This document shows positions 48,076 to 60,908 of a stretch of DNA of 64,000 bases, piece by piece. The stretch is taken from positions 124,001 through 188,000 of the forward strand of contig CADBZW010000005.1 of assembly GCA_902799345.1 (NCBI GenBank). Reading direction: 5' to 3'. A program made the position numbers and the translations under genes. Numbering within the stretch: position 1 is the stretch's first letter; the number at the start of each line of letters is the position of its first letter. The notes beneath the pieces are model-generated. The model ran no database searches and was not told where the DNA came from. It saw only the letters and a program-made list of their open reading frames with translations. The DNA is from an uncultured Bacteroidia bacterium (lineage in GTDB: Bacteria; Bacteroidota; Bacteroidia; Bacteroidales; F082).

Positions 48076-48827
48076 ACGAAGTGCTCCATACCACGAACCT
48101 ACTTATCGGCTATAAAGGTCAAGCCCTGATGCCCGCAATCGACGTGAGCCTCGGCGAAGGCGACATCGTGGCCTTGGCGGGTCCCAACGGCTCGGGCAAG
48201 ACGACGCTGTTCAAGACGCTGTCGGCCAGCCTCAAACCCGTCGGCGGCGAGGTCAAGCTGTTCGGCAAGGACTTGCGCGACTACTCCCCCACCGAACGCA
48301 GCTCGCTCTTCAGCCTCGTCCTCACCGAGAAGCCCGACGACCTGTTTTTGAAGGTTTTCGACATTGTGGCCGCCGGTCGCTATCCCCATCTCGGTCTTTT
48401 AGCCAAACTTAAGGCTGAAGACGAGCAAATCATTTACGACAGCCTCGAAACCGTCGGCATCAGCCATTTGGTCAACCGGAACTTCGTCTCGTTGAGCGAT
48501 GGCGAACAACAGAAAGTGATGATAGCCAAGGCCTTGGTACAGGACACGCCACTCATCTTCATGGACGAGCCTGCCGCCTTCCTCGACTATCCGAGCAAAA
48601 TCGAGTTGGTCAACATCATGCACAAACTCTCGCGCGAGAAGCACAAGACCATCCTTTTCAGCAGCCACGACCTCGATTTGTTGCTCCGTCACGCCGATGT
48701 TATGTGGGTCGTCGCGCCGCAGCAGCCTTTGCGCCAAGGTACGCCGAAAGAATTGGTTGAGCGAGGGGTTATCGACGCCTATTTTAAGCCAATCGTAGCG
48801 AAAGAAGAATTCTATTGGATGAGGTAA
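48072..48827 (+). CDS. FecE/BtuD-type ABC transporter ATP-binding protein
   Basis: From ATG 48072 (MNEVLHTTNLLIGYKGQALM) the product is 251 aa. It has Walker A AGPNGSGKTTLFKTL, the signature VSLSDGEQQKVMIAKAL, Walker B PLIFMDEPAAFLDYP, and the H-loop FSSHDLDLLL. It powers the upstream permease. The C-terminus PIVAKEEFYWMR recurs as isolated remnants at 49665-49709 and 58283-58327. Confidence 0.92.
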   Translation: MNEVLHTTNLLIGYKGQALMPAIDVSLGEGDIVALAGPNGSGKTTLFKTLSASLKPVGGEVKLFGKDLRDYSPTERSSLFSLVLTEKPDDLFLKVFDIVAAGRYPHLGLLAKLKAEDEQIIYDSLETVGISHLVNRNFVSLSDGEQQKVMIAKALVQDTPLIFMDEPAAFLDYPSKIELVNIMHKLSREKHKTILFSSHDLDLLLRHADVMWVVAPQQPLRQGTPKELVERGVIDAYFKPIVAKEEFYWMR

Positions 48828-48843
48828 CTACCTCAATTTCAAG

Positions 48844-48851
48844 TAACTTTG
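48844..48851 (+). promoter_or_regulatory. -7 box upstream of the SGNH hydrolase gene
   Basis: TAACTTTG lies 17 nt before the ATG at 48869. Confidence 0.45.
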
Positions 48852-48868
48852 CACCAAACTATCATCCT

Positions 48869-49546
48869 ATGCGTAAAACAACCCTTATCCTCATCTTAAC
48901 AGCTATGTGGTTTTCAGGTTATGCACAAAAAGACTGGTTCGGCTTCAACCGTTACAAGGCCGACAACGACAGTATCATTGCCAGCGGCAAGTTCCCCGAC
49001 GTCGTGTTTATGGGCAACTCCATCACCGACAACTGGGCCTATTTCCATCCCGAGTTCTTCACCGAGAACAACTTCTGCGGCAGGGGCATCGGGGGACAGA
49101 CCTCGGCGCAGATGCTGGTGCGCTTCACCGCCGATGTCATCGACCTGCATCCCAAGGCCGTGGTTATCATGGCAGGCACCAACGACGTGGCGCACAACGA
49201 CTATTGGGTGACTCCTGAGAAGGTGGTCGACAACATCATCGCCATGTGTGACCTGGCCCGCGACCATGGCATCGTGCCCATCATCAGCTCCATACCGCCT
49301 TGCTCGAAATTCCCATGGAGGGAGGAGATTGAGAACCCGGGGCAGACCATCGTCGAAATCAACGACAACCTGAGAGCTTACGCCGAAGCCCATGACATCG
49401 TATACGTGGACTACCATTCCGCCCTCGCCGACGAGCACCTTGGATTGCCCTCCTCGCTGAGCGAAGACGGCTGCCATCCCAATCCCGACACCTATCTTGT
49501 CATGGAGGAGATGGTATTAGAGGCGATACGCGTTGCGTTACAATAA
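48869..49546 (+). CDS. Secreted SGNH/GDSL-family hydrolase
   Basis: The 225-aa product has a signal peptide (MRKTTLILILTAMWFSGYAQ). The SGNH blocks follow: block I VVFMGNSITDNW (Ser in GNS), block II RGIGGQTSAQM (Gly), block III MAGTNDVAH (Asn), and block V DGCHPNPDTYLVM (Asp and His). This matches the acetylxylan-esterase/GDSL lipase-like group common in Bacteroidota. All catalytic residues are present. It probably removes acyl groups from polysaccharide in the periplasm. It lies just after the ATPase gene but has its own -7 box. Confidence 0.9.
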   Translation: MRKTTLILILTAMWFSGYAQKDWFGFNRYKADNDSIIASGKFPDVVFMGNSITDNWAYFHPEFFTENNFCGRGIGGQTSAQMLVRFTADVIDLHPKAVVIMAGTNDVAHNDYWVTPEKVVDNIIAMCDLARDHGIVPIISSIPPCSKFPWREEIENPGQTIVEINDNLRAYAEAHDIVYVDYHSALADEHLGLPSSLSEDGCHPNPDTYLVMEEMVLEAIRVALQ

Positions 49547-49664
49547 GAAATCACGGGGACATATAAGAATCAAGCAAAAGAAAACTCCTACGGAGTACAA
49601 CTCGTTGAATGATTGTTTTTTGTTATTAAAAGAGAGCTCCTACGGAGCAAATTTTAGAAATTCC

Positions 49665-49709
49665 TTAAAGCCGATTGTGTCTAAGGATGAGTTTTTCTGG
49701 ATGAAATGA
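49665..49709 (+). pseudogene. Remnant of the 3' end of an ABC ATPase gene
   Basis: The frame reads LKPIVSKDEFFWMK then a stop, matching the last residues of the intact ATPase (FKPIVAKEEFYWMR, ending at 48827). The nucleotides differ mostly at synonymous positions. No further ATPase similarity is visible upstream. Two CTCCTACGGAG palindromes lie just upstream (about 49585 and 49637). Confidence 0.55.
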
Positions 49710-49731: not shown

Positions 49732-49739
49732 TATTTTTG
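49732..49739 (+). promoter_or_regulatory. -7 box of the first small transcript of the island
   Basis: TATTTTTG is followed at once by CAGCGTCT, the same initial sequence as the transcripts beginning near 54688 and 57043. Confidence 0.55.
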
Positions 49740-49741
49740 CA

Positions 49742-49893
49742 GCGTCTGAAGCGCCCAGGCCCTCGCATCTTGCCTTTGTCGTGCGTTGGGCAGCTAACAG
49801 ACAGGCCGAGCAAGCGGTCTCGTAGCAGGGGCGACTACGAAAAACTCCGACGGAGAGGTTCACGAACGACCCTTTACCGTCGGAGTCTTTTTT
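49742..49893 (+). ncRNA. Candidate small RNA B (family 1)
   Basis: A unit of about 150 nt runs from the -7 box to an intrinsic terminator. Its core (49757-49820) includes CCCTCGCATCTTGC, GTTGGGCAGCTAACAGACAG and CCGAGCAAGCGGTCT. It aligns with candidate RNA C at about three quarters identity, with mostly transitions and one 1-nt indel. Next comes a hairpin CGTAG-CAGGGGCGA-CTACG, then the terminator stem. Any reading frame across it begins before the promoter, so a protein product is unlikely. Function unknown. Confidence 0.6.
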
Positions 49894-49901
49894 TATTTTT
49901 T
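49844..49901 (+). terminator. Intrinsic terminator of candidate RNA B
   Basis: The stem ACTCCGACGG (49844-49853) with CCGTCGGAGT (49877-49886) is followed by TCTTTTTTTATTTTTTC. It overlaps the 3' end of the convergent gene at 49893. Confidence 0.85.
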
Positions 49902-50969
49902 CTTTTTCGACAAACAATTCTCGTTGAAGACGATCATCGGATAATGCGCTCCGAACTCCCCACGCACCACTTTCTTTCCCGGATACCAATCATAGTAAAA
50001 CAGGTCTATCGTATCAGGCAACAACTTTCGCACCTGCTGGGCTAATGAAAAACCGCGCTCAAACCATTCTTTGTCTTGTTTTTTGGTCCAATTAAGAGAA
50101 GTAACATCATCATACTCATCATACCATTCACGTAAGCCTTCGATAGAATCCAACTTGATTTCCCCTGCCGTGTCCGTCCAAAGGGAATCGGCACTGCCAC
50201 AACAACTGCTGCCCCAAAACAAAGCATCGCCGAAGTCGCACCACATGCAGACCGTTTCCTTTATCTTGGGCATCCTCCTGAAACTGATGTCCGCTCCATA
50301 GCAAAATGGTGACCGGATATTCCATTCTATCAAAGGCGATTTGATGTCATTGTAGAAAGTCATATTATCCCACTTTGGTCCGCTCCTGTATCCATTTGGA
50401 CCATAAAACCATTCTTTCGCAAAATCACTGCGTTGCGTGTTGTAGCAGTTGCCGCATAGTGCAAGAAGCGCAAGGTAAATCGAGTTGACGAAATCCTTGG
50501 TTTCACACAATGCATAGAAAGGGATGCTGTCGGTATCAGAATCATACACAAAGAACAAGCCAATCTCAGGGTCGGTATTGGCATCATAATCATGAACTAT
50601 TTCTTTTCCCGGATCAGGCCTTTCAACCGAAAAACCAAAGCTCGCAGCACGCAACATTTCGTAATGAAGATACACCTCCTTGCCCTCGCAATCGATTCGC
50701 ATCGTGTGCTCCAATTGGATACCCTTCACGATATCTTCGAGCCACATCGTCATTTCAACGAAAGGATCAAAGACCACACTGCAATCGCAAGTCAGCCGTT
50801 TTTTCCCGTTCAGGTACATCTCCATATCAATCCATCCCGCTTCGGGCGGAGTGAAATAGAAGAAGGTGGAATCCAACTTCTTAAACAAGTCTTTACGCTC
50901 CGAAATTTCTTTGTATACACGGCTCCTTTCGGCGAACCAACCGTTTTCATACTCCAGTTCCATAATCAT
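49893..50969 (-). CDS. Unknown cytoplasmic protein, paralogue of the gene at 51635-52750
   Basis: The 358-aa product has no signal peptide or membrane segment and is not recognised. It is clearly paralogous to the product of 51635-52750. Shared runs include AERSRVYKE, STFFYFTPPEAGW, MEMYLNGKKRLTC, VNSIYLALLAL, KIKETVCMWCDFG, VRKLLPDTIDLFYYDWYPGK and MIVFNENCL. Several Cys and many acidic and aromatic residues are present. It is the last gene of a four-gene minus-strand operon (LRR protein - paralogue - DUF5618 - this gene) with gaps of 9-14 bp. The DNA is AT-richer than the core genome. One possibility is that the two paralogues are immunity-type or regulatory proteins; that is speculation. 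An ATG two codons inside is an alternative start. Confidence 0.7.
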   Translation of the reverse strand: MIMELEYENGWFAERSRVYKEISERKDLFKKLDSTFFYFTPPEAGWIDMEMYLNGKKRLTCDCSVVFDPFVEMTMWLEDIVKGIQLEHTMRIDCEGKEVYLHYEMLRAASFGFSVERPDPGKEIVHDYDANTDPEIGLFFVYDSDTDSIPFYALCETKDFVNSIYLALLALCGNCYNTQRSDFAKEWFYGPNGYRSGPKWDNMTFYNDIKSPLIEWNIRSPFCYGADISFRRMPKIKETVCMWCDFGDALFWGSSCCGSADSLWTDTAGEIKLDSIEGLREWYDEYDDVTSLNWTKKQDKEWFERGFSLAQQVRKLLPDTIDLFYYDWYPGKKVVRGEFGAHYPMIVFNENCLSKKKK

Positions 50970-51634: not shown

Positions 51635-52750
51635 TCATTTTTTCGTTTTCGGCAAACAATTCTCGTTAAAAACAATCATCGGGCACCTTGCTTCATGCTT
51701 GTAAACAATCTTAGGTTTCTTTGATATTACGCACTCATCACCATCACGCACGACTCTCTTTCGCGGATACCAATCATAGTAAAACAGGTCTATCGTATCA
51801 GGCAACAACTTTCGCACCTCCAAGGCAAAAGAAAAGCCGCGCTCTTGAAAGTCGTTCCATCGCTTTTTGGACCAATCTTTTTCGGGAAGATGCGCGGAAT
51901 CATACTCATTATACCACTCTTTCAATCCCTTGATTGAATCCAACCGAATTTCTCCAGCAGTGTCAGTAGAGATGCTTTCAACATCACCGATACAAGCACC
52001 CTCATTAATTGTTCCTCTACCCCAAAACAAAGCACCACCGAAATCGCACCACATACTTACCGTTTCTTTTATCTTGGGCATTTTCCTGAAATGTTTGTCG
52101 CCACAAAAGCACTGTGGATTTTGGATTTTCCATTCTATCAAAGGCGATTTGATAGAATTGTATACAGTCAAATGGTCCAGCTTCTTCCCGTTCCGGAGGT
52201 CGTTTTCATCATAAAACCATTCCTCTGCAAAATTGCTGTGTTGTGTGTTGTAGCAGTTGCCAAAAAGCGCAAGAAGTGCGAGATAAATCGAGTTGACAAA
52301 ATCTCCCGTTTCGCAGAGGGCATAAAACGGTATGGTATCAGAACACGAATCATAGACATAAAACAGGCCAATTTCCGAAAAGACATCTGTCCGAGAATGG
52401 CGCCATTTATCTTTTGTGCTTATGACAAAGTCTGCGTCACGAAGTTTCTCATAGTGCAAATACATCTCTTCGCCCTCACAATCAATATGCATGGTCGTTT
52501 CCATATTTCTGCTACGAACGATATCTTCAAGCCATCGTTTCATGTCGGGGAACGGGTCATGCACACAGCTACATGCGCAAGTCAGCCGTTTTTCCCCGTT
52601 CAGGTACATTTCCATATTAATCCAACCCGCTTCGGGCGGAGTGAAATAGAAGAACGTGGAATCCAAGTTCTTAAACAAGTTTTCGCGCTCAGAAAGCTCT
52701 TTGTACACGCGGCTCCTTTCGGCAAGCCAACCTTTTTGATAGTATAACAT
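51635..52750 (-). CDS. Unknown cytoplasmic protein, paralogue of the gene at 49893-50969
   Basis: The 371-aa product is similar along its whole length to the 358-aa product two genes downstream, sharing STFFYFTPPEAGW, MYLNGEKRLTCAC, DCEGEEMYLHYEKLRDADF, FAEEWFYDENDLRNGKKLD, MPKIKETVSMWCDFGGALFWG and LPDTIDLFYYDWYPRK. It has a short insert (TINEGACIGDVE) near residue 256 and a longer C-terminal loop before MIVFNENCL. No catalytic motif is recognised. The DUF5618 gene separates the two paralogues, so the operon looks like a partial duplication. It lies 14 bp downstream of the LRR gene. Confidence 0.7.
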   Translation of the reverse strand: MLYYQKGWLAERSRVYKELSERENLFKNLDSTFFYFTPPEAGWINMEMYLNGEKRLTCACSCVHDPFPDMKRWLEDIVRSRNMETTMHIDCEGEEMYLHYEKLRDADFVISTKDKWRHSRTDVFSEIGLFYVYDSCSDTIPFYALCETGDFVNSIYLALLALFGNCYNTQHSNFAEEWFYDENDLRNGKKLDHLTVYNSIKSPLIEWKIQNPQCFCGDKHFRKMPKIKETVSMWCDFGGALFWGRGTINEGACIGDVESISTDTAGEIRLDSIKGLKEWYNEYDSAHLPEKDWSKKRWNDFQERGFSFALEVRKLLPDTIDLFYYDWYPRKRVVRDGDECVISKKPKIVYKHEARCPMIVFNENCLPKTKK

Positions 52751-52763
52751 AGGTTATCAACAT

Positions 52764-54578
52764 TTAGTCAACAAACTTCTCCACCATCTCCAAGGAAAGG
52801 AAGCTGAGGTGGTCGTGCTCGCTGAACAATTCTTCCGGTATTTTCTTGCCTTGCCTTACACATTCCCTGACGGTTTCCGAACATTCCTCGGGTAAAACCG
52901 TTACCGCCATATCGGATGAATCCACATATTTGGAATCGATTTGCTCTTTTGACGGCTTGTAAAATTCCGCAACGACATATTGTTTCGAATAGTGTTTCAA
53001 CTTCACAATGTCGCCTGGGCCGAAAGGATGGGGAATATCGACATAGCAGTCAATGAGGTTTTCTATTTCTTTTGGAACAGGATAGTCTCCAAGATAATAG
53101 TCGTTATTAACAGGAGAATAGTCCTTTTCAAGCTCGAATGAGCCAATCGCGTTTTCAAGGGCCTTGTCCTTGGCTTTGTATTGTCGGCAAATGATTTTGT
53201 CATACTTTTTCAGGGCTTCCTTTTTTCTCATGTCATCCTCGCAGGCAAAACTATGCGGATACTTGCCAAGCAGAATCTCTTTGTAGCCCACCCGTGCTCC
53301 GCTTTCAGGGTCTTTGTAATCATAGTAGACGCCGAATGCCGCTATTCTCCTTGTCTTAAAGTTCCCGTGTAACTCAGCCCAGTTTTTTTCCCATTTGTTT
53401 TTTAAGTAGGAAAGCAGCAACCGTTCTTGCTTGGTAAGTATAGTCGTTTGCTCCAGATCCCAGTAGAACCACTTCTTATTGCTGCCCGCAGGTTCCGGCG
53501 ACATTTCCACCAAATTGATTATCTCTTTCGGGGAGAGCAATAGATCTTTTTCAAGCAAATAGTTCCGCTCGGTGTCCGATTCCACATAACCTATCGCACG
53601 GCGGGAAAATTCCAGCTGGGTCTCGACATCCATAACACATTTATAGACAAGTTTGTTGATGCCTTCCACGGCGAAATAGGGATTGTCAGTGTCTATGACA
53701 ATGGCAGGTTTTCTCGCGACATCATCACCAACGATGTAATCATACCAGAAATCATCGGCGATATACTTTGTGGTGGCAGGCAAACGAACTTGTTCAAATT
53801 CGGTGAATGCGTAACTTCCCAGATGCTCGAATCCATACGGGAACTCAATGATTCCATCGCCTTCCTCCCCGAAATGGAAGCAGTTGTCATCTTCTACGGT
53901 TTTGAGCGAAGATGGAAGTCTGTCAATTGCGCAATAGCGGAAGCAATAAGGTGGAAAAGTTTCAATTCTGTCCGAAACCCTTATGATACCTATATCGGCA
54001 TAACAAAACGCGCCGTCACCAAGTGTCTCGACCGTCTCGGGCATGATGAGTTCTTCCAAATTCTCGACATTTGAGAAAGAACTCTCGCCAAATTCCTTCA
54101 ACCCTGTCGGCAGATCGATTTTTTCCATTTTCTCGTAGGCGGCAAAGGCCAAGCGGCCAATGGTTTCAATCCCTTCGGGAACAACGACGTGTTCGGTGTC
54201 GGGGTGATGCACAAGCACCTTCCTGTCGGGAGTCGTCAAAATGCCATCGTTGTAAACAAACCTTGTTCCATACTTCCTGTTTACAAGCATCTTAAAGATC
54301 ATGGAAGGTTGTTCTTCATCGGCATCTTCCGGAATGTCCTCATCGTTGACATTACCCTCATAATCCAGCAAGTGCATATCGGTAATGTCAAATTCAACTG
54401 GATGGAAATCCTTGGCGATTTCGTTGAATCCGAAAAGCAATTCGTAGGAATAACTTCCTTTGTCATTAAATGGGTTGCAATACACGTTGCCAACCAAAAC
54501 CATTTTCTCACAATCACGGTTTTGCTCAATCCATTCAGCAAGATACAGCTTTCCAAATTCAAAAGTTGCCGTCTTCAT
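52764..54578 (-). CDS. Cytoplasmic protein with BspA-type leucine-rich repeats
   Basis: From ATG 54578 (MKTATFEFGKLYLAEW) the product is about 604 aa. Residues about 125-270 contain LRR_5/BspA-like repeats (VVPEGIETIGRLAFAAYEKM, LPTGLKEFGESSFSNVENLE, MPETVETLGDGAFCYADIGI). Unlike most BspA proteins it has no signal peptide, so it is probably intracellular. The C-terminal third has helices and a small beta domain (HPFGPGDIVKLKHYSKQYVV), with no recognised catalytic motif. It is the promoter-proximal gene of the four-gene operon and has a -7 box preceded by the 19-bp palindrome described at 54621-54639. An upstream ATG at 54614 would precede the transcription start and is rejected. Confidence 0.72.
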   Translation of the reverse strand: MKTATFEFGKLYLAEWIEQNRDCEKMVLVGNVYCNPFNDKGSYSYELLFGFNEIAKDFHPVEFDITDMHLLDYEGNVNDEDIPEDADEEQPSMIFKMLVNRKYGTRFVYNDGILTTPDRKVLVHHPDTEHVVVPEGIETIGRLAFAAYEKMEKIDLPTGLKEFGESSFSNVENLEELIMPETVETLGDGAFCYADIGIIRVSDRIETFPPYCFRYCAIDRLPSSLKTVEDDNCFHFGEEGDGIIEFPYGFEHLGSYAFTEFEQVRLPATTKYIADDFWYDYIVGDDVARKPAIVIDTDNPYFAVEGINKLVYKCVMDVETQLEFSRRAIGYVESDTERNYLLEKDLLLSPKEIINLVEMSPEPAGSNKKWFYWDLEQTTILTKQERLLLSYLKNKWEKNWAELHGNFKTRRIAAFGVYYDYKDPESGARVGYKEILLGKYPHSFACEDDMRKKEALKKYDKIICRQYKAKDKALENAIGSFELEKDYSPVNNDYYLGDYPVPKEIENLIDCYVDIPHPFGPGDIVKLKHYSKQYVVAEFYKPSKEQIDSKYVDSSDMAVTVLPEECSETVRECVRQGKKIPEELFSEHDHLSFLSLEMVEKFVD

Positions 54579-54603: not shown

Positions 54604-54639
54604 CAAAAATACAAGCTGCTTGTTTCAAAACGTGAAACA
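54604..54639 (-). promoter_or_regulatory. Promoter with 19-bp operator palindrome (LRR operon)
   Basis: On the minus strand the palindrome TGTTTCACGTTTTGAAACA (54639 to 54621) is followed by 9 nt and then the -7 box TATTTTTG (54611 to 54604). The same palindrome-9 nt-box layout occurs at 55007-55042, 56642-56677 and 57049-57084. The palindrome covers the -33 region. Confidence 0.7.
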
Positions 54640-54687
54640 TGGCGAAAAAAAATCTAGTCGTTCAGAAAAGTTTTCGTAATTTTGCAG

Positions 54688-54939
54688 CGTCTTTATCCAT
54701 TGCGGGTGTGTGATGATGACTAGACAAGAGTGTCTGGGTGTCCCTACAACACTGGTTGAAGAAGCCGAGTCGGTCGGCTATATTCCACATCCGTCCGCCG
54801 CCCTGGCAGGTCTGCACGATCACCTGACCAGCGGGGTACGGGACGTTGGGGGTGCAGACAACCCATACTGGCATCGGGCGGTTGCCAGCTCTGAAGACTG
54901 ACATACGGGGAGTCCTTTGTGGGCTTCCCGTTTCCTTTT
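54688..54939 (+). ncRNA. Candidate small RNA A (family 2), about 250 nt
   Basis: A -7 box TAATTTTG at 54677-54684 is followed by CAGCGTCT. An intrinsic terminator ends the unit: stem ACGGGGAGTCC (54905-54915) with GGGCTTCCCGT (54921-54931), then TTTCCTTTT. The body has paired GC-rich segments (e.g. GCCGAGTCGGTCGGC, CAGGTCTGCACGATCACCTG). An ORF of 63 codons (54710-54901) fills most of it, so a small protein cannot be excluded. No ribosome-binding site is evident, and the GC-rich, structured body favours RNA. It diverges from the LRR operon. Confidence 0.55.
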
Positions 54940-55006
54940 GCTTCATACTGATGTCACTGCATCTTGCATCCATAATAATCTATAATTTCCTTTTTTTTTG
55001 ACGCGG

Positions 55007-55042
55007 CAAAGACAAAAAACAACTGTTTCGAAACATGAAACA
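55007..55042 (-). promoter_or_regulatory. Second copy of the 19-bp operator with weak -7 box
   Basis: The minus strand reads the palindrome TGTTTCATGTTTCGAAACA (55042 to 55024), 9 nt, then TGTCTTTG (55014 to 55007), a poorer -7 box. The transcript would run antisense through candidate RNA A. A 103-codon ORF (54662-54973) follows, but it may only be the mirror of the RNA. Confidence 0.55.
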
Positions 55043-55072
55043 TGTCGTTTTTTTGAATCATATCAAAAAGAG

Positions 55073-55216
55073 AACTGCCGTCCCGAAAAGTCCCAAAAGA
55101 AACCTTAAAGAGGCAGCAGTTTCTTGTTATCGCTGGAGGGAACATACGCGAAGGTCCGCCCCTTACGTCTTGATAATTCATTTGTTTTTCATTCCGTGTC
55201 CGCGACCAACTGGCTA
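55073..55216 (-). ncRNA. Possible small RNA E
   Basis: The minus strand has a -7 box TACTTTTG (55224 to 55217). About 140 nt later an imperfect stem (AACTGCTG with CGGCAGTT) is followed by CTCTTTTTG at about 55066-55074. The arrangement resembles the other small units of the island, but the terminator is weaker and no homologue was found in the window. A 75-codon frame (MNYQDVRGGPSR...) also runs through it. Confidence 0.3.
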
Positions 55217-55276
55217 CAAAAGTACAAAAAAACTGAAATACCGCCATCTGATTGCGTTTTTTCAACGAATCAATCC

Positions 55277-55912
55277 TCAAAACACCAGATAATCAAACCG
55301 TTTTTTCTCTTCAGGAGTCAACAAGTAGATGTTATCGCATACAAATTCTTGAAAAGCGATTTCGATGAGGTCTTTACGCTTTGTGCCCGTTTTATCAAGC
55401 AGCAGTTCAAACAGCTCCTTGCTTTGCCTCTTGACGATACGTCTGTCTTCCCTCTTGGTGGAATTAAACTTCTTCATCCTCTCTTCCCTGTCTCTTTTCT
55501 CTTCCTCGATTTGCTCGATGACACTTTGTATGTTTTTGCACATATCAATCAGGTATTCAGCCCTTTCAATGCCATCATCGCAAATATTTTTGGATTGATT
55601 TCCGTCCACTGACAAATAAATTGCCAGCGCATAATAGGCAATATCAAAACCGTTATATAATCTATCGCCAATTTTCCTTGTTTCTTCCTCATAAGCCTTG
55701 TAATCATAGGTTTCTATGTTTTTTTCAAGGGCATAATTCAAGGCTATGGAACAACCCTTCCACGCTGACCTTCCGGCCTTTTTTACGTTTTTCACATCAG
55801 CGTAATGCAACAAAATGCCATCGTCCGAAATATCATCAATGGGTGTGTTGGCCAGTATGTCTTTTGCCTTTTGCAGGTATTCTTCCGCTTTTTGTATAGG
55901 GGTCTTTTTCAT
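55277..55912 (-). CDS. DUF5618-like helical protein, second copy
   Basis: The 211-aa product has the same architecture as the product of 50982-51626. The DUF5618-like domain shows IQKAEEYLQKAKDILANTPI, LLHYADVKNVKKAGRSAWKG and FDIAYYALAIYLSVDG. The charged segment (QIEEEKRDREERMKKFNS) and the terminal motif LTPEEKKRFDYLVF follow. It is the second gene of a two-gene cassette, 18 bp downstream of the unknown gene at 55931-56623. Presence of one copy per cassette suggests a shared partner role for the otherwise unrelated first genes. Function unknown. Confidence 0.68.
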   Translation of the reverse strand: MKKTPIQKAEEYLQKAKDILANTPIDDISDDGILLHYADVKNVKKAGRSAWKGCSIALNYALEKNIETYDYKAYEEETRKIGDRLYNGFDIAYYALAIYLSVDGNQSKNICDDGIERAEYLIDMCKNIQSVIEQIEEEKRDREERMKKFNSTKREDRRIVKRQSKELFELLLDKTGTKRKDLIEIAFQEFVCDNIYLLTPEEKKRFDYLVF

Positions 55913-55930
55913 AGGGCTATATTTGCAAAA

Positions 55931-56623
55931 TCAAACATTTCTGAAACTAGTGTTTTTGTCGAAGCCCGCCGATTCCAGTTTCTGGATGTCGCTACGAGTA
56001 TCAACTATCGGTTTTTCCTTCTGCGAAGAGAGAAACTCATAGATTGCCTTCCACATCTCTTCCGAAGGAATGACTTTGGGAATATAGGTCTCACATAGAA
56101 TAGGATTGTCCACCCGTTTGGCAACATCCACTTTTCTCTTACCCCATTCAACCTCTCCCGTCCAAAAGCTAAAAAGCAGACTGCAAGGAGCTAACGCGAT
56201 GGGCGAATCCGAAATACGGTCCTTCACCTCATGCTCCGTTCTGATCAGCCTATAATCCACACATAGACTATTGTTTTTGGTATCAATCCATCTTTCTACC
56301 TCAAAGCAATACCGATTCCATCCGACTTCCAAGACATAATGGAAAACCCTACCTTCAAGCCTAGTCTTGTGATAAAACCTTTTTTTCGTTTTTTCCACTT
56401 CACTCCTATTGCGAACGCTGTTCAACTCCCATATTTGTTTGGCTTCCATAGGTTTGTCGTCAGGCAATAATGTGGTGGCGAAACATTCTTCCAAACCAGA
56501 TTGCAAGACGCCTGGTGCATTGAGCGACTTTGAACCTCTGCGGTCAAAGACAATCTGTTCGTCAATGCCATACACGCCCGACAGATAATCGTAGTAGTCT
56601 TTCTTGTTATCGATGATTTTCAT
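55931..56623 (-). CDS. Unknown cytoplasmic protein, first gene of the second cassette
   Basis: From ATG 56623 (MKIIDNKKDYYDYLSGVYGI) the product is 230 aa, without signal peptide or membrane helix. Visible features are DEQIVFDRRGSKSLNAPGVL near the N-terminus, a Trp/Tyr-rich central part (FHYVLEVGWNRYCFEVERWI) and CSLLFSFWTGEVEWGKRKVD. I know of similar-looking uncharacterised Bacteroidota proteins beginning this way but cannot name a family. Its promoter carries the 19-bp palindrome. The start at 56623 is preferred over 56644, which lies next to the -7 box. Confidence 0.65.
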   Translation of the reverse strand: MKIIDNKKDYYDYLSGVYGIDEQIVFDRRGSKSLNAPGVLQSGLEECFATTLLPDDKPMEAKQIWELNSVRNRSEVEKTKKRFYHKTRLEGRVFHYVLEVGWNRYCFEVERWIDTKNNSLCVDYRLIRTEHEVKDRISDSPIALAPCSLLFSFWTGEVEWGKRKVDVAKRVDNPILCETYIPKVIPSEEMWKAIYEFLSSQKEKPIVDTRSDIQKLESAGFDKNTSFRNV

Positions 56624-56641
56624 GCTTCCTAATTTTGGCGG

Positions 56642-56677
56642 CAAAAATAAAAGCCAATTGTTTCATAACATGAAACA
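56642..56677 (-). promoter_or_regulatory. Third copy of the 19-bp operator with promoter (second cassette)
   Basis: The minus strand reads the palindrome TGTTTCATGTTATGAAACA (56677 to 56659), 9 nt, then TATTTTTG (56649 to 56642), 18 nt before the ATG at 56623. Confidence 0.7.
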
Positions 56678-56691
56678 TCCTCAAAAAAGCA

Positions 56692-57043
56692 TAAAAAACC
56701 GCCGACGGCTAAAGGCTTTTTGCTGCCCTTGCCGCCGGCGGCTGTATTTTGTTTCGGTGAACCAAGGTAGGTTTGTACTACGTTTGGCCTACGCACCTGA
56801 AGGTTACGTTTTGTCGCCAACAGGTGGGAGCGAAACAGAAGGTCTTGGCCTTCAAAAATGCAGTGTCGATACCTCCGCAAGGATACTCGTAGGATCGGTT
56901 TTATGGCCAGCCCTGTTTATTGGCCAACGACACCGCTTATTAAACAAGGGGATGCCAACAACACCCCTAAGGCCGCTTGCTCGACCTATCCGTTAACCAC
57001 CCAACACACAATGAAGCAAGATGTGAGGGCTTTGGCAGATGGA
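56692..57043 (-). ncRNA. Candidate small RNA C (family 1), about 350 nt
   Basis: Transcription would start just after the -7 box at 57049-57056 with CAGCGTCC. The core at 56970-57032 (minus strand: CCCTCACATCTTGC, GTTGGGTGGTTAACGGATAG, TCGAGCAAGCGGCCT) is homologous to RNA B. A hairpin AGGGGTG...CATCCCCT follows, in place of the CGTAG hairpin of RNA B. About 200 nt of further structured sequence ends in the terminator CCGCCGGCGGC/GCCGTCGGCGG plus six T at 56693-56741. No credible ORF spans it. Confidence 0.6.
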
Positions 57044-57048
57044 CGCTG

Positions 57049-57084
57049 CAAAAATACAAAACCATTGTTTCACAGCGTGAAACA
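57049..57084 (-). promoter_or_regulatory. Fourth copy of the 19-bp operator with promoter (RNA C)
   Basis: The minus strand reads the palindrome TGTTTCACGCTGTGAAACA (57084 to 57066), 9 nt, then TATTTTTG (57056 to 57049). Confidence 0.7.
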
Positions 57085-57089
57085 TGACG

Positions 57090-57281
57090 AAAAAAAAACT
57101 TTCAGGACAGCCGGTAGCAGCAACTAATGATAGGCTGTGGTGCCAATCCTGAAAGTATTCTATTGTCGCATCCAAAAGGAAGCAGTACCCGCGTCACTTG
57201 TGACGGGTGGGGACAACCACCCTGCTTCGGTCTGCCGACCCATGTCCCGTTTCCGGAGATCTACACAGCAACCAGATCGAC
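57090..57281 (-). ncRNA. Candidate small RNA D, about 190 nt
   Basis: The -7 box TACTTTTG (57293 to 57286) is followed by CAGTGTCG. The 3' end is a two-step terminator: outer stem ACTTTCAGGA/TCCTGAAAGT, inner stem ACAGCC/GGCTGT, then nine T on the minus strand (57090-57098). An internal hairpin GGGTGG...CCACCC and the stretch ACGGGACATGGG...GCAGAC loosely resemble RNA A (ACGGGACGTTGG...GCAGAC). A 28-codon frame exists but looks incidental. Confidence 0.55.
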
Positions 57282-57285
57282 ACTG

Positions 57286-57342
57286 CAAAAGTACAAAACT
57301 TTTTGGAATCCAACATTACTTTACGGAATTTCCCTATTTTTG
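57286..57342. promoter_or_regulatory. Divergent promoters of RNA D and the WYL regulator
   Basis: A minus-strand -7 box (57286-57293) and a plus-strand TATTTTTG (57335-57342) lie back to back. Between them is the palindrome TTGGA-A-TCCAA (57303-57313), which differs from the TGTTTCA operator. It is a plausible site for autoregulation by the WYL protein. Confidence 0.5.
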
Positions 57343-57381: not shown

Positions 57382-58281
57382 ATGAGAAACACCGACACAT
57401 TCAGACAATACACTTGGTTAGTGAACACCATCCAAAGGGCAGGTGGCATCACCTTCGAAAGAATCGGACAGATGTGGATCGATAGCGACCTAAACGAAGG
57501 CAAGCCCTTGTCGCGCACCACGTTCTATCGCCTGCGCCAAGCCATCGACGACATGTTCGGCATCCGCATCGAGAGCGACAACCAGCACCGCTATTACATC
57601 AGCAACCCGGAAACACTCTACGACAACTCGACCCAGAACTGGATGCTGCGAACCCTCACCGTCAGCAGTCTCCTCATGGACGGCCTTTCCATCAAAGACC
57701 AAATTGTGCTGGAAGACATCCCTGCCGGATTGGAGCATCTCGAGACCATCATCGACGCCCTCAAAAACCGCCACGCACTGCGCATGGGCTACAAAAAATT
57801 CACCGACTCCGAGCCTTACACCACCCTCATCGAGCCTTATTGCCTCAAACTCTTCCGTCAACGTTGGTACCTACTCGGAAAAAGCGAAAGAAAAGACCAT
57901 AAGATGGCTATCTACGCCCTCGACCGCATAACGGAAATCACAGAAACAGAGACAAAGTACGAACTAGATGCCGACTTTGATGCCGAGGCCTTTTTCAAGG
58001 ACTATTTTGGCGTGTTTATCGGAGAGGAGATGCCTGCACAACGCATCGTATTGCGCGCCTATTACAACATGCCCAACCTACTGCGCACCCTTCCCTTGCA
58101 TCGCTCGCAAAAAGAAATATGCAGGACAGATGCCTATGCTGATTTTGAGTATTTTCTTGTCCCCACCATGGACTTCAGACAAGCCATCCTCAAAGAAGGC
58201 AACGAATTGGAGGTCATCGAACCTCTATCGTTGCGCGAGATGATACACGATGAGCTAAAGGAGACAATTAAATTGTACTGA
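57382..58281 (+). CDS. WYL-domain transcriptional regulator
   Basis: The 299-aa product has an N-terminal winged-helix region (RQYTWLVNTIQRAGGITFER, PLSRTTFYRLRQAIDDMFGI). A central WYL domain follows with the core YTTLIEPYCLKLFRQRWYLL and GKSERKDHKMAIYALDRI, and a WCX-like C-terminal extension (EEMPAQRIVLRAYYN ... EVIEPLSLREMIHDELKE) ends it. WYL proteins sense ligands, often nucleotides or nucleic acids, and several control phage-defence loci. It is divergent from RNA D and at the edge of the island, making it the obvious candidate regulator of the repeated operators. Confidence 0.9.
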   Translation: MRNTDTFRQYTWLVNTIQRAGGITFERIGQMWIDSDLNEGKPLSRTTFYRLRQAIDDMFGIRIESDNQHRYYISNPETLYDNSTQNWMLRTLTVSSLLMDGLSIKDQIVLEDIPAGLEHLETIIDALKNRHALRMGYKKFTDSEPYTTLIEPYCLKLFRQRWYLLGKSERKDHKMAIYALDRITEITETETKYELDADFDAEAFFKDYFGVFIGEEMPAQRIVLRAYYNMPNLLRTLPLHRSQKEICRTDAYADFEYFLVPTMDFRQAILKEGNELEVIEPLSLREMIHDELKETIKLY

Positions 58282-58282
58282 C

Positions 58283-58327
58283 AAGCATATTGTGGCAAAA
58301 GAGGAGTTCTATTGGATGAGATTATGA
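58283..58327 (+). pseudogene. Second remnant of an ABC ATPase 3' end
   Basis: Right after the WYL stop, the frame reads KHIVAKEEFYWMRL then a stop. IVAKEEFYWMR is identical to the last residues of the ATPase at 48072-48827. The two tails share TTCTATTGGATGAG exactly. Confidence 0.55.
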
Positions 58328-59105: not shown

Positions 59106-60908
59106 ATGCAGAATATCAGAAATATAGCAATTATCGCTCACGTTGACCACGGCAAAACCACCCTCGTGGACCGTATCCTTTACCAATCACAACTCTTCAA
59201 GGAATCGGACGAAGCACCCGGCCAACTCATTCTCGACAACAACGACCTCGAACGCGAACGCGGCATCACCATCCTTTCGAAGAATGTGTCTGTTCGTTAT
59301 AAAGACGTCAAAATCAATATCATAGATACTCCTGGCCACGCCGACTTCGGTGGCGAGGTGGAGCGCGTGCTCAACATGGCCGACGGCGTGCTGCTGCTGG
59401 TCGACGCCTTCGAAGGCCCCATGCCGCAGACCCGTTTCGTGCTGCAGAAGGCCATCGAACTGGGCCTGAAGCCCATCGTGGTCATCAACAAGGTGGATAA
59501 ACCCAACTGCCGTCCCGACGAGGTGCAAGAGGCTGTCTTCGACCTGATGTTCAACCTCGGCGCCACCGAGGACCAGCTGGACTTCCCCACCGTCTATGGT
59601 TCCTCAAAACAAGGCTGGATGTCGGACCACTGGGAAAACGTCACCGACAACGTCTCCTACCTCTTGGACGTCATCATCGACACCATCCCGCCCGCGAAGT
59701 TCGAGGAAGGCACACCGCAGATGCTCATCACCTCTTTGGACTACAGCTCGTATGTTGGCCGTATTGCTGTGGGCCGTCTGAAGCGTGGCACCCTGCAGGC
59801 CGGACAGAACGTCTCGCTGGTGAAACGCGACGGTTCCGTGACCAAGTCGACCATCAAGGAACTCTACACCTTTGAAGGCCTGGGCAAGGAGCGCACCAAG
59901 AAACCTGTCGAGGCCGGCGACATCATCGCGCTGATGGGTATCGACGACTTCGAAATCGGCGACACCGTGGCCGACTACGAGAACCCTGAGCCGCTGCCGC
60001 CCATCCATGTGGACGAGCCCACGATGAGCATGCTGTTCACTATCAACAACTCACCGTTCTTCGGCAAGGAAGGCAAATACGTCACCTCGCGTCACCTGCG
60101 CGAACGCCTCTACAAAGAGACCGAGAAGAACCTCGCCTTGAAGGTGGAAGACACCGAATCACCTGATTCTTTGATGGTTTACGGCCGCGGCATACTGCAC
60201 CTCAGCATCCTTGTCGAGACCATGCGTCGTGAGGGCTATGAGTTCCAACTTGGTCAGCCCAAGGTCATCATCAAATACATCGACGACGTGAAGTGCGAGC
60301 CTATCGAGGCCTTGACCGTCCTCGTCCCCGAGGACTTTGCAGGCCGTGTCATCGAGCAGGTCAGCGCCCGCAAGGGTGAGATGACCCAGATGGAGCCCAA
60401 GGGCGACCGCATGTGCCTCGACTTCGACATCCCGTCGCGCGGTCTCATCGGCTTGAGAAACACGCTGCTGACCGTCACCGAGGGTGAGGCCATCGTCTCG
60501 CACCGCTTCAAGGACTACGAACCTTGGAAGGGCGAGATGCCGACCCGTAACACCGGTGCCTTGATTTCGATGGAGACGGGCCAAGCCATCCCCTACGCCA
60601 TCTGGAAGCTGCAGGACCGTGGCACCTTCTTCGTCAACCCGAACGAAGACGTCTATGCCGGCGAGGTCATCGGCGAGAACACGCGCAGCAACGACATCGT
60701 CATCAACGTGTGCAAGACCAAGTGCGTTTCTCGTTGGAGGAATACATGGAATACATCCGCGACGACGAATATCTTGAGGTCACGCCCAAGAGCCTGCGTC
60801 TGCGCAAGATCATCCTCGACGAGCTGGAACGCAAACGCGCCTCACGTCGTGGCGAGGAATGATGATAAAGCCATAGAGATACACTCCCTCCTTCGTCAGT
60901 CGGTATGA
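59106..60908 (+). CDS. typA: Ribosome-associated GTPase TypA/BipA, apparently frameshifted near the 3' end
   Basis: The GTPase domain has G1 [24 protein letters not shown] and NKVDK. Domains II-V follow normally to INVCKTK at about residue 538. There the family continues with a loop (KLTNMR...) and a C-terminal domain. Here the sequence jumps to [20 protein letters not shown] and [21 protein letters not shown], but in another frame, which stops at 60862. About 20 codons of the loop are missing. The unshifted frame reads non-homologous residues and ends at 60908. TypA helps ribosome assembly under stress and is often dispensable. This may be a real mutation or an assembly error. Confidence 0.85.

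Follow-up and report, generated by a model that had tools for sequence, protein, structure and literature searches.

What would a single palindrome control when it recurs at four promoters of an uncultured Bacteroidia bacterium, and which regulator would read it? The question arises from a 64-kb window, by which we mean the whole stretch of DNA analysed (contig CADBZW010000005.1, positions 124,001 to 188,000), in which an 8.6-kb island carries eight RNA modules (m1-m5, RNA B, RNA A and an m1-like RNA at 49740) together with the LRR and P6-DUF5618 operons. The answer that we consider probable is that the RNAs form a toxin-less array of antitoxins, an orphan immunity against nucleases of phages or mobile elements, placed under the operator of CRISPR-associated WYL regulators. 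It builds on what sequence comparison establishes: the anatomy of the island, the operator family, the pairing of RNAs with protein partners, the conservation of RNA folds and the loss of internal terminators. The four operators are as follows.

54604..54639, minus strand: operator 1, exact palindrome (54621-54639) and -7 box (54604-54611); promoter of the LRR operon
55007..55042, minus strand: operator 2, palindrome with one mismatch (55024-55042) and -7 box TGTCTTTG; predicted transcript antisense to RNA A
56642..56677, minus strand: operator 3, exact palindrome (56659-56677) and -7 box; promoter of the P6-DUF5618 operon
57049..57084, minus strand: operator 4, exact palindrome (57066-57084) and -7 box; promoter of RNA C

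The palindrome, TGTTTCA-N5-TGAAACA (7-5-7), is exact at three of these sites and has a TGTTTCG half at operator 2. From all four, the minus strand runs exactly 9 nucleotides (nt) before a box reading TATTTTTG (three sites) or TGTCTTTG (one site), which we take to be the Bacteroidetes-type -7 box. The arrangement of four palindromes 9 nt from a minus-strand box, described in an initial annotation of this DNA, therefore holds, with three copies exact and one near-exact, as does its claim that the operator-2 transcript would run antisense to RNA A, a plus-strand RNA. Such a transcript may terminate at a T8 tract near 54650.

From the base composition of the window, 0.0002 exact copies of the motif would be expected in its 64 kb, where three are present, and 0.01 in the whole 3.1-Mb genome, where there are four. 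With up to three mismatches, the window gave nine matches against 4.3 expected from shuffles; with up to two, the whole genome showed no clear excess (26 matches versus 24 for a reversed control), which argues that the true sites are few and near-perfect. Among 131 window palindromes of the 7-5-7 form with at most one mismatch, a T[AG]NNTTTG box stands at exactly 9 nt in five, and the reported sites are four of these five. Identity among the four 58-nt promoter blocks is 62-83%, and their 9-nt spacers differ; as a caveat, the similarity of the blocks may reflect descent from one copied promoter.

The fourth exact genomic copy, on contig C4, lies between cas9 and the gene for a WYL paralogue that is 78% identical to the WYL protein of the window. 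The locus is a type II CRISPR-Cas system with cas9, cas1, cas2 and an array, and its palindrome has the 9-nt spacing towards cas9. When both WYL proteins were used as queries against named GTDB genomes, 12 relatives were found in 11 genomes, all of them assemblies of uncultured Bacteroidales or Bacteroidia. The palindrome is present in the divergent promoter of all 12 (exact in 11), about 60 nt upstream of the WYL gene, with 9-10 nt separating it from the divergent -7 box and 14-18 nt from the -7 box of WYL itself. The divergent gene is cas9 at seven loci, a type I-C cas3 operon at three and a cas3 gene at one, the remaining contig ending there (cas identity was assigned by family models at loci L016, L026, L029, L030 and L034). 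Cas9 kinds and Cas3 swap across the loci while the WYL gene and the palindrome remain constant, and PLSRTTF[YF]R, presumably the recognition helix, is invariant in the 12 WYL proteins compared. Because the WYL-cas divergent promoters carry it, the palindrome is very likely, as far as such comparisons go, the operator of a CRISPR-associated WYL family, and this link to CRISPR-Cas, seen at 11 of the 12 loci with the other contig cut, had escaped the initial annotation.

We also scanned 173 genomes of the bacterial family for the full pattern with at most one mismatch, and obtained 16 matches versus 2 for the reversed control. Eleven lie outside the genome under study: eight adjoin a WYL gene (six on contigs from the 12-relative scan), one (L072) lies by cas9 with no WYL gene in view, and two, in other genera and with one mismatch, lie by neither. 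Two features of the cas loci were noted in passing. At loci L024-L034 and L016, at least two Cas9 kinds (~26% identity) are exchanged among loci with similar WYL, Cas1 and Cas2. At L016 (8909-13426), the operator-driven cas9 leader on the minus strand lies antisense across a tracrRNA-like plus-strand unit (the tracrRNA was read by eye), in the same layout as operator 2 over RNA A.

One WYL regulator is encoded in the window itself.

57382..58281, plus strand: WYL regulator; WYL domain above the cut-off, WCX below it

Its own promoter lacks TGTTTCA-N5-TGAAACA and its promoter region carries a different palindrome, as first described: TTGGATTCCAA (57300-57330), which also lies 9 nt from the -7 box of RNA D and is perhaps the site of a second regulator or an altered operator. 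Since the shared palindrome sits at the promoter of the C4 WYL gene and is absent from that of the window gene, the cas9-linked C4 paralogue is an equal or better candidate for the regulator. The proposal of one regulator common to the four promoters, and of the WYL family as the candidate, is strongly supported by the 12 of 12 relatives with the palindrome in their own divergent promoters; the initial annotation had not noticed the C4 paralogue. A WYL tree was mostly unresolved and did not place the window protein. A PDB sequence search with it listed other WYL proteins and PafBC, and PADLOC, run on eight window proteins, returned matches for the WYL gene only.

The RNAs that these promoters serve or adjoin are listed here.

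56692..57045, minus strand: RNA C, fusion m1-m2-m3 driven from operator 4
57090..57304, minus strand: RNA D, fusion of m4 (57163-57304) and m5 (57092-57160)
55066..55227, minus strand: RNA B, single module (55125-55227 with promoter) and terminator
54686..54946, plus strand: RNA A, single module of ~260 nt
49732..49890, plus strand: m1-related small RNA (120 bits) that converges with P1 and has a promoter and a terminator of its own

In RNA C, which comprises m1 (56939-57061, with promoter), m2 (56864-56936) and m3 (56744-56839), the m1 terminator is degraded, its T-tract being broken, the m2 terminator is absent, and a single terminator remains at the end. RNA D, whose promoter TACTTTTG lies 9 nt from TTGGATTCCAA, likewise has no m4 terminator. 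RNA A is 89% identical to one relative, opposite which lies a gene that matches PBECR3 below the threshold; a reading of RNA A from the antisense strand was rejected, as the relative shows the plus strand. Rfam gave no match above gathering score between 48000 and 64000, and one sub-threshold match, outside the RNAs; no similarity was found between the RNA modules and the genome's own cas9 locus and array.

The small RNAs had been recognised initially, but not their antitoxin-like partnership with PBECR-type nucleases or the partly fused arrays. Short promoter-like matches aside, similarity to other genomes falls into five separate blocks for the RNA D-C region and into two for the RNA B-A region; as no more than three candidates were scored in each genome, the copy numbers are minimum values. 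Elsewhere, such a block typically forms a separate RNA of 70-260 nt that has a promoter and a terminator to itself and converges with a gene whose protein product has ~136-167 amino acids. By Pfam, RNA B and m4 pair with PBECR3 proteins and m2 and m3 with PBECR1 proteins, all above the cut-off; the protein paired with RNA A matches PBECR3 below the threshold, and the m1 and m5 partners match no Pfam family. Profile comparison of the m1 partners with PBECR3 gave a moderate match, and pairwise comparison with the m4 partner gave weak ones; the best structural matches to a predicted m1-partner model, all weak, are RelE/BrnT/HigB/CDI-type toxins, and Foldseek gave none at E 0.001. PDB sequence searches with the m1 and PBECR1-type partners returned nothing relevant, and PADLOC matched none of seven partner proteins. 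In the 64-kb window, no frame of at least 40 codons matches, at E 0.1, any of the seven partner types, represented by ten proteins.

We counted 111 RNA places, leaving out matches that cover less than 45% of the module and places with identical 200-nt flanks; one (L118) is in the genome under study, and truncated partner frames of at least 60 codons were counted as partners. A partner frame lies within 250 nt in 81, and in 80 of these 81 it belongs to the cognate family, the exception being one RNA B beside a PBECR1-like frame. The other 30 places, three at contig ends, have no intact partner. Starting instead from the protein, tB, the RNA B partner, gave 67 matches in 41 genomes, and at all 30 loci examined (one per genome) RNA B lies on the 3' side. 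RNA without toxin is thus common and toxin without RNA was not seen among the 30 tB loci, which is the pattern expected of an antidote.

Searches with RNA models reached another bacterial family, where the m1 model found RNAs in two genomes (L295 and L296), each convergent with a partner that shares 56% or 48% identity, respectively, with t1, the m1 partner, as well as a further m1 copy (L299) and two RNA B copies (L288, L289) without a cognate partner. Two weak RNA B model matches there (L290, L291; 31.6 bits) were taken as chance. Among 13 further places, mostly distant matches and including one cut contig and one that also holds a known tB locus, eight (six distinct) share a new candidate RNA with the -7 box in the same position, two are PBECR1-like loci with unshared candidate RNAs, and at one an RNA B-like sequence overlaps a partial match. 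At L336-L346, 3' of distant PBECR3-like genes, a candidate RNA family with the core GCACGTTAAGGACGTACAGCGTCACG was observed.

Conservation of the RNA folds was examined in alignments of 11, 6 and 5 relatives for m1, m2 and m3 (96% redundancy cut) and of 39 of 42 selected relatives plus the window sequence for RNA B (alignment A2), from which L178, L181 and L193:3196 were left out as sequences that are decayed or have no 5' half. In the m1 alignment, 99.6% of cells are paired and 8 of 19 pairs show two-sided changes, a count that none of 500 shuffles reached, although relatedness of the sequences can inflate such covariation scores; the number of further pair types lies within the ordinary range of the shuffles (108 of 500). 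For RNA B, two-sided changes occur at 3 of 16 pairs (4 of 500 shuffles), with further pair types no better than shuffles. The counts for m2 (6 of 23 pairs) and m3 (9 of 27) are without shuffle control. The window sequences themselves keep 16 of 16 consensus pairs in RNA B, 19 of 19 in m1, 19 of 19 in the 49740 RNA, 25 of 27 in m3 and 21 of 23 in m2.

In the mechanism that we propose for the array as orphan immunity, a WYL protein of the CRISPR-associated family would bind the operators and, by analogy with BrxR, probably keep them repressed until infection or damage sends a releasing signal. Activation by WYL is a conceivable alternative, because the palindrome covers the -33 region. Each RNA module would most likely bind and inhibit its cognate PBECR-type RNase in trans, in the manner of type III antitoxin RNAs, so that the array would protect against RNases delivered by phages or other elements. 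Because operator 2 reads antisense over RNA A, the same switch may lower RNA A while raising the other RNAs. The LRR and P6-DUF5618 operons would be co-regulated cargo sharing the operator. A bolder version, which we put forward tentatively and with more doubt than confidence, is that one WYL switch commands both Cas9 and the tandem bank of RNA antidotes, which would disarm phage-injected PBECR RNases while CRISPR acts, a form of counter-counter-defence; such RNases may attack the CRISPR RNAs themselves.

The strongest rival, which we nevertheless judge unlikely, holds that the RNAs are leftovers of decayed addiction modules, kept by chance or by buffering of residual toxin, and that the operators came along with copied promoters and have no immunity role. 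Decay does occur: of 27 partnerless places examined, 8 have remnants of the cognate toxin, 16 have nothing and 3, all in L112, have fragments or a neighbouring unit's gene only; the genome under study has an RNA B beside a truncated tB; the three RNA B relatives left out of alignment A2 are themselves decayed or lack their 5' half; and the promoter blocks of the window do look copied. Mere leftovers, however, sit poorly with the near-complete retention of consensus pairs in the window modules and with a tandem fusion in which the internal terminators are lost and one terminator is retained. L112, in another species, also speaks against them, as its RNAs stand one after another without toxins, each behind a promoter of its own, up to a single complete pair at the end.

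That the RNAs act in cis only, as antisense or termination elements of a convergent toxin mRNA, seems distinctly less probable. Native pairs are indeed convergent, and the RNA match and the gene end overlap or lie within ~100 nt of each other, but tandem RNAs keep their fold with no toxin nearby and the same layout recurs across unrelated toxin families. We give an equally low probability to a palindrome bound by some transcription factor other than WYL. The window WYL gene has no site upstream of itself, the cas9-linked site L072 has no WYL gene in view, and WYL-operator binding is a matter of sequence comparison; against this, all 12 WYL relatives adjoin the site while the gene across from them changes (Cas9 kinds, Cas3), and BrxR, itself a WYL protein, binds inverted repeats that likewise have a 5-bp spacer (PMC9122601). 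Reversed roles, in which the RNA is harmful or regulatory and the PBECR protein is an RNase that removes it, draw on the prediction that PBECR proteins are RNases (PMC5512222) and on CreT as a precedent for small RNAs as toxins (PMC9458426), but are very improbable, since a toxic RNA predicts the opposite of RNA without protein at 30 of 111 places and protein without RNA at 0 of 30 tB loci.

How does the island read as orphan immunity relate to systems already described? BrxR, as reported in PMC9122601 (the family also in PMC9122589), is a WYL regulator of phage-defence islands that represses and binds inverted repeats with a 5-bp spacer, and the former source describes Sll7009 as a WYL protein repressing a type I-D CRISPR locus. 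The present family resembles that of BrxR in having WYL beside defence genes, a 5-bp-spacer inverted repeat at promoters and more than one site per island, and departs from it in the Cas9 and type I-C link, the 7-5-7 operator and a window cargo of RNA modules and uncharacterised proteins. The BrxR domain plan is an N-terminal HTH, a WYL domain and a C-terminal dimerisation domain; the window protein gave WYL above the cut-off and WCX below it. Type III toxin-antitoxin systems (ToxIN, CptIN and TenpIN; PMC5086642) similarly pair an RNase-like protein with a specific structured RNA, which in our pairs probably binds the RNase. Those systems are same-strand bicistrons with the RNA upstream and a terminator between, whereas window-type pairs are convergent with separate promoters; native loci here hold single RNA units, and the window arrays join different modules with no tandem repeats of one unit; and the partners appear PBECR/RelE-like and not MazF-like in fold. 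By layout, repeat structure and fold, the island is not a type III toxin-antitoxin system, nor is it a CRISPR locus.

PBECR proteins of phages and mobile elements are predicted RNases in PMC5512222; those of our partners with a Pfam assignment match in family (PBECR1 and PBECR3) and in being solo genes, and differ in having an RNA partner ('noncoding RNA' has no occurrence in the main text of that paper). The MuF polymorphic toxins of temperate phages likewise need an antidote, for which PMC5576092 proposes small downstream open reading frames (ORFs); here the antidote would be an RNA and not an ORF ('noncoding' does not occur in that text and 'small RNA' occurs once, in its reference list). 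Antidotes without toxins are also the content of Bacteroidales orphan immunity arrays and acquired interbacterial defence (PMC12247911, PMC10470768), which differ in that the antidotes here are RNA and not protein and the operator is CRISPR-linked. CreTA (PMC9458426, PMC8501985) couples RNA toxin-antitoxin elements to CRISPR-Cas, as may the island; the coupling here would run through a protein operator, and no module matches the genome's own cas9 locus or array. In the open-licence literature, with most subscription papers and preprints outside the search, we found neither an RNA partner for PBECR nucleases nor an operator for this WYL family. If our reading is right, three things would come from these data: the exact operator of a WYL family that accompanies CRISPR in uncultured Bacteroidales, a set of RNase-RNA pairs whose structured RNA probably serves as antidote to solo PBECR nucleases, and an immunity locus of fused toxin-less RNA antidotes in a slot that apparently holds CRISPR-Cas in a relative. 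One locus would then join RNA antitoxins, orphan immunity and CRISPR regulation.

The slot is delimited by repeats of the 3' end of an ABC ATPase gene, two of which (49668, 58283) bound the island.

48786..48823, plus strand: boundary repeat copy 1, the 3' end of the ABC ATPase gene itself
49668..49705, plus strand: boundary repeat copy 2, left end of the island
58283..58320, plus strand: boundary repeat copy 3, right end of the island

The upstream ABC ATPase gene of one relative (G465) is joined almost directly to the typA region, an arrangement that marks the empty site. In a second relative (G464), one contig breaks off downstream of the ABC gene and has three copies of a repeat, and 35 copies of that same repeat are present on the contig carrying a type I-C operon, WYL and typA. 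The slot of G464 very probably holds type I-C CRISPR-Cas, which we infer across the contig break that interrupts it. Between 49706 and 58320 of the window, no cas genes or CRISPR repeats were found. A GDSL-lipase gene lies between repeat copies 1 and 2 (48824-49667), as if a smaller insertion had preceded the island in the slot. Further downstream, TypA (59106-60908) changes frame near its end, with ~57 nt missing at 60722 relative to L030, from a deletion, a frameshift or an assembly error.

Three loci elsewhere (L036, L111 and L288) have phage-like surroundings, judged by eye from gene content. At L111 (G095:C4:15000-34900), three RNA-partner pairs (m5, A and B) lie within 13 kb of a phage-like element, which has many small membrane-protein-like frames, and at L288 a packaging-ATPase-like frame, read by eye, stands beside the solo RNA B. 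Exact-pattern scans of IMG/VR turned up 11 stretches for RNA B, of which the RNA model confirmed none, and no matches for m5, m2 and m4; a scan for m1 with too loose a pattern gave 77 stretches, none convincing (best, 17.7 bits). As these pattern scans gave no confirmed match, a viral carrier was not demonstrated in IMG/VR.

The protein genes of the island are the following.

49893..50969, minus strand: P1, paralogue of P3
50982..51626, minus strand: P2, DUF5618 protein
51635..52750, minus strand: P3, 371 amino acids, no Pfam match; paralogue of P1 (68% identity)
52764..54578, minus strand: P4, BspA-type LRR protein (LRR_5), first gene of the operator-1 operon
55277..55912, minus strand: P5, DUF5618 protein with a C-terminal block
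55931..56623, minus strand: P6, ~230 amino acids, no Pfam match

P3 has 30 relatives among 5.8 billion proteins and P6 has 318 at E 0.001, none of them with a name. One P6 relative (L122) lies divergent from a PBECR1 gene, with 191 nt between the starts; this neighbourhood is a hint that P6 may be part of the same conflict as the PBECR nucleases. The C-terminal 60 amino acids of P5 (55277-55460) are also found, at ~51% identity, in short separate frames (G104:C37, G132:C28 and G108:C120).

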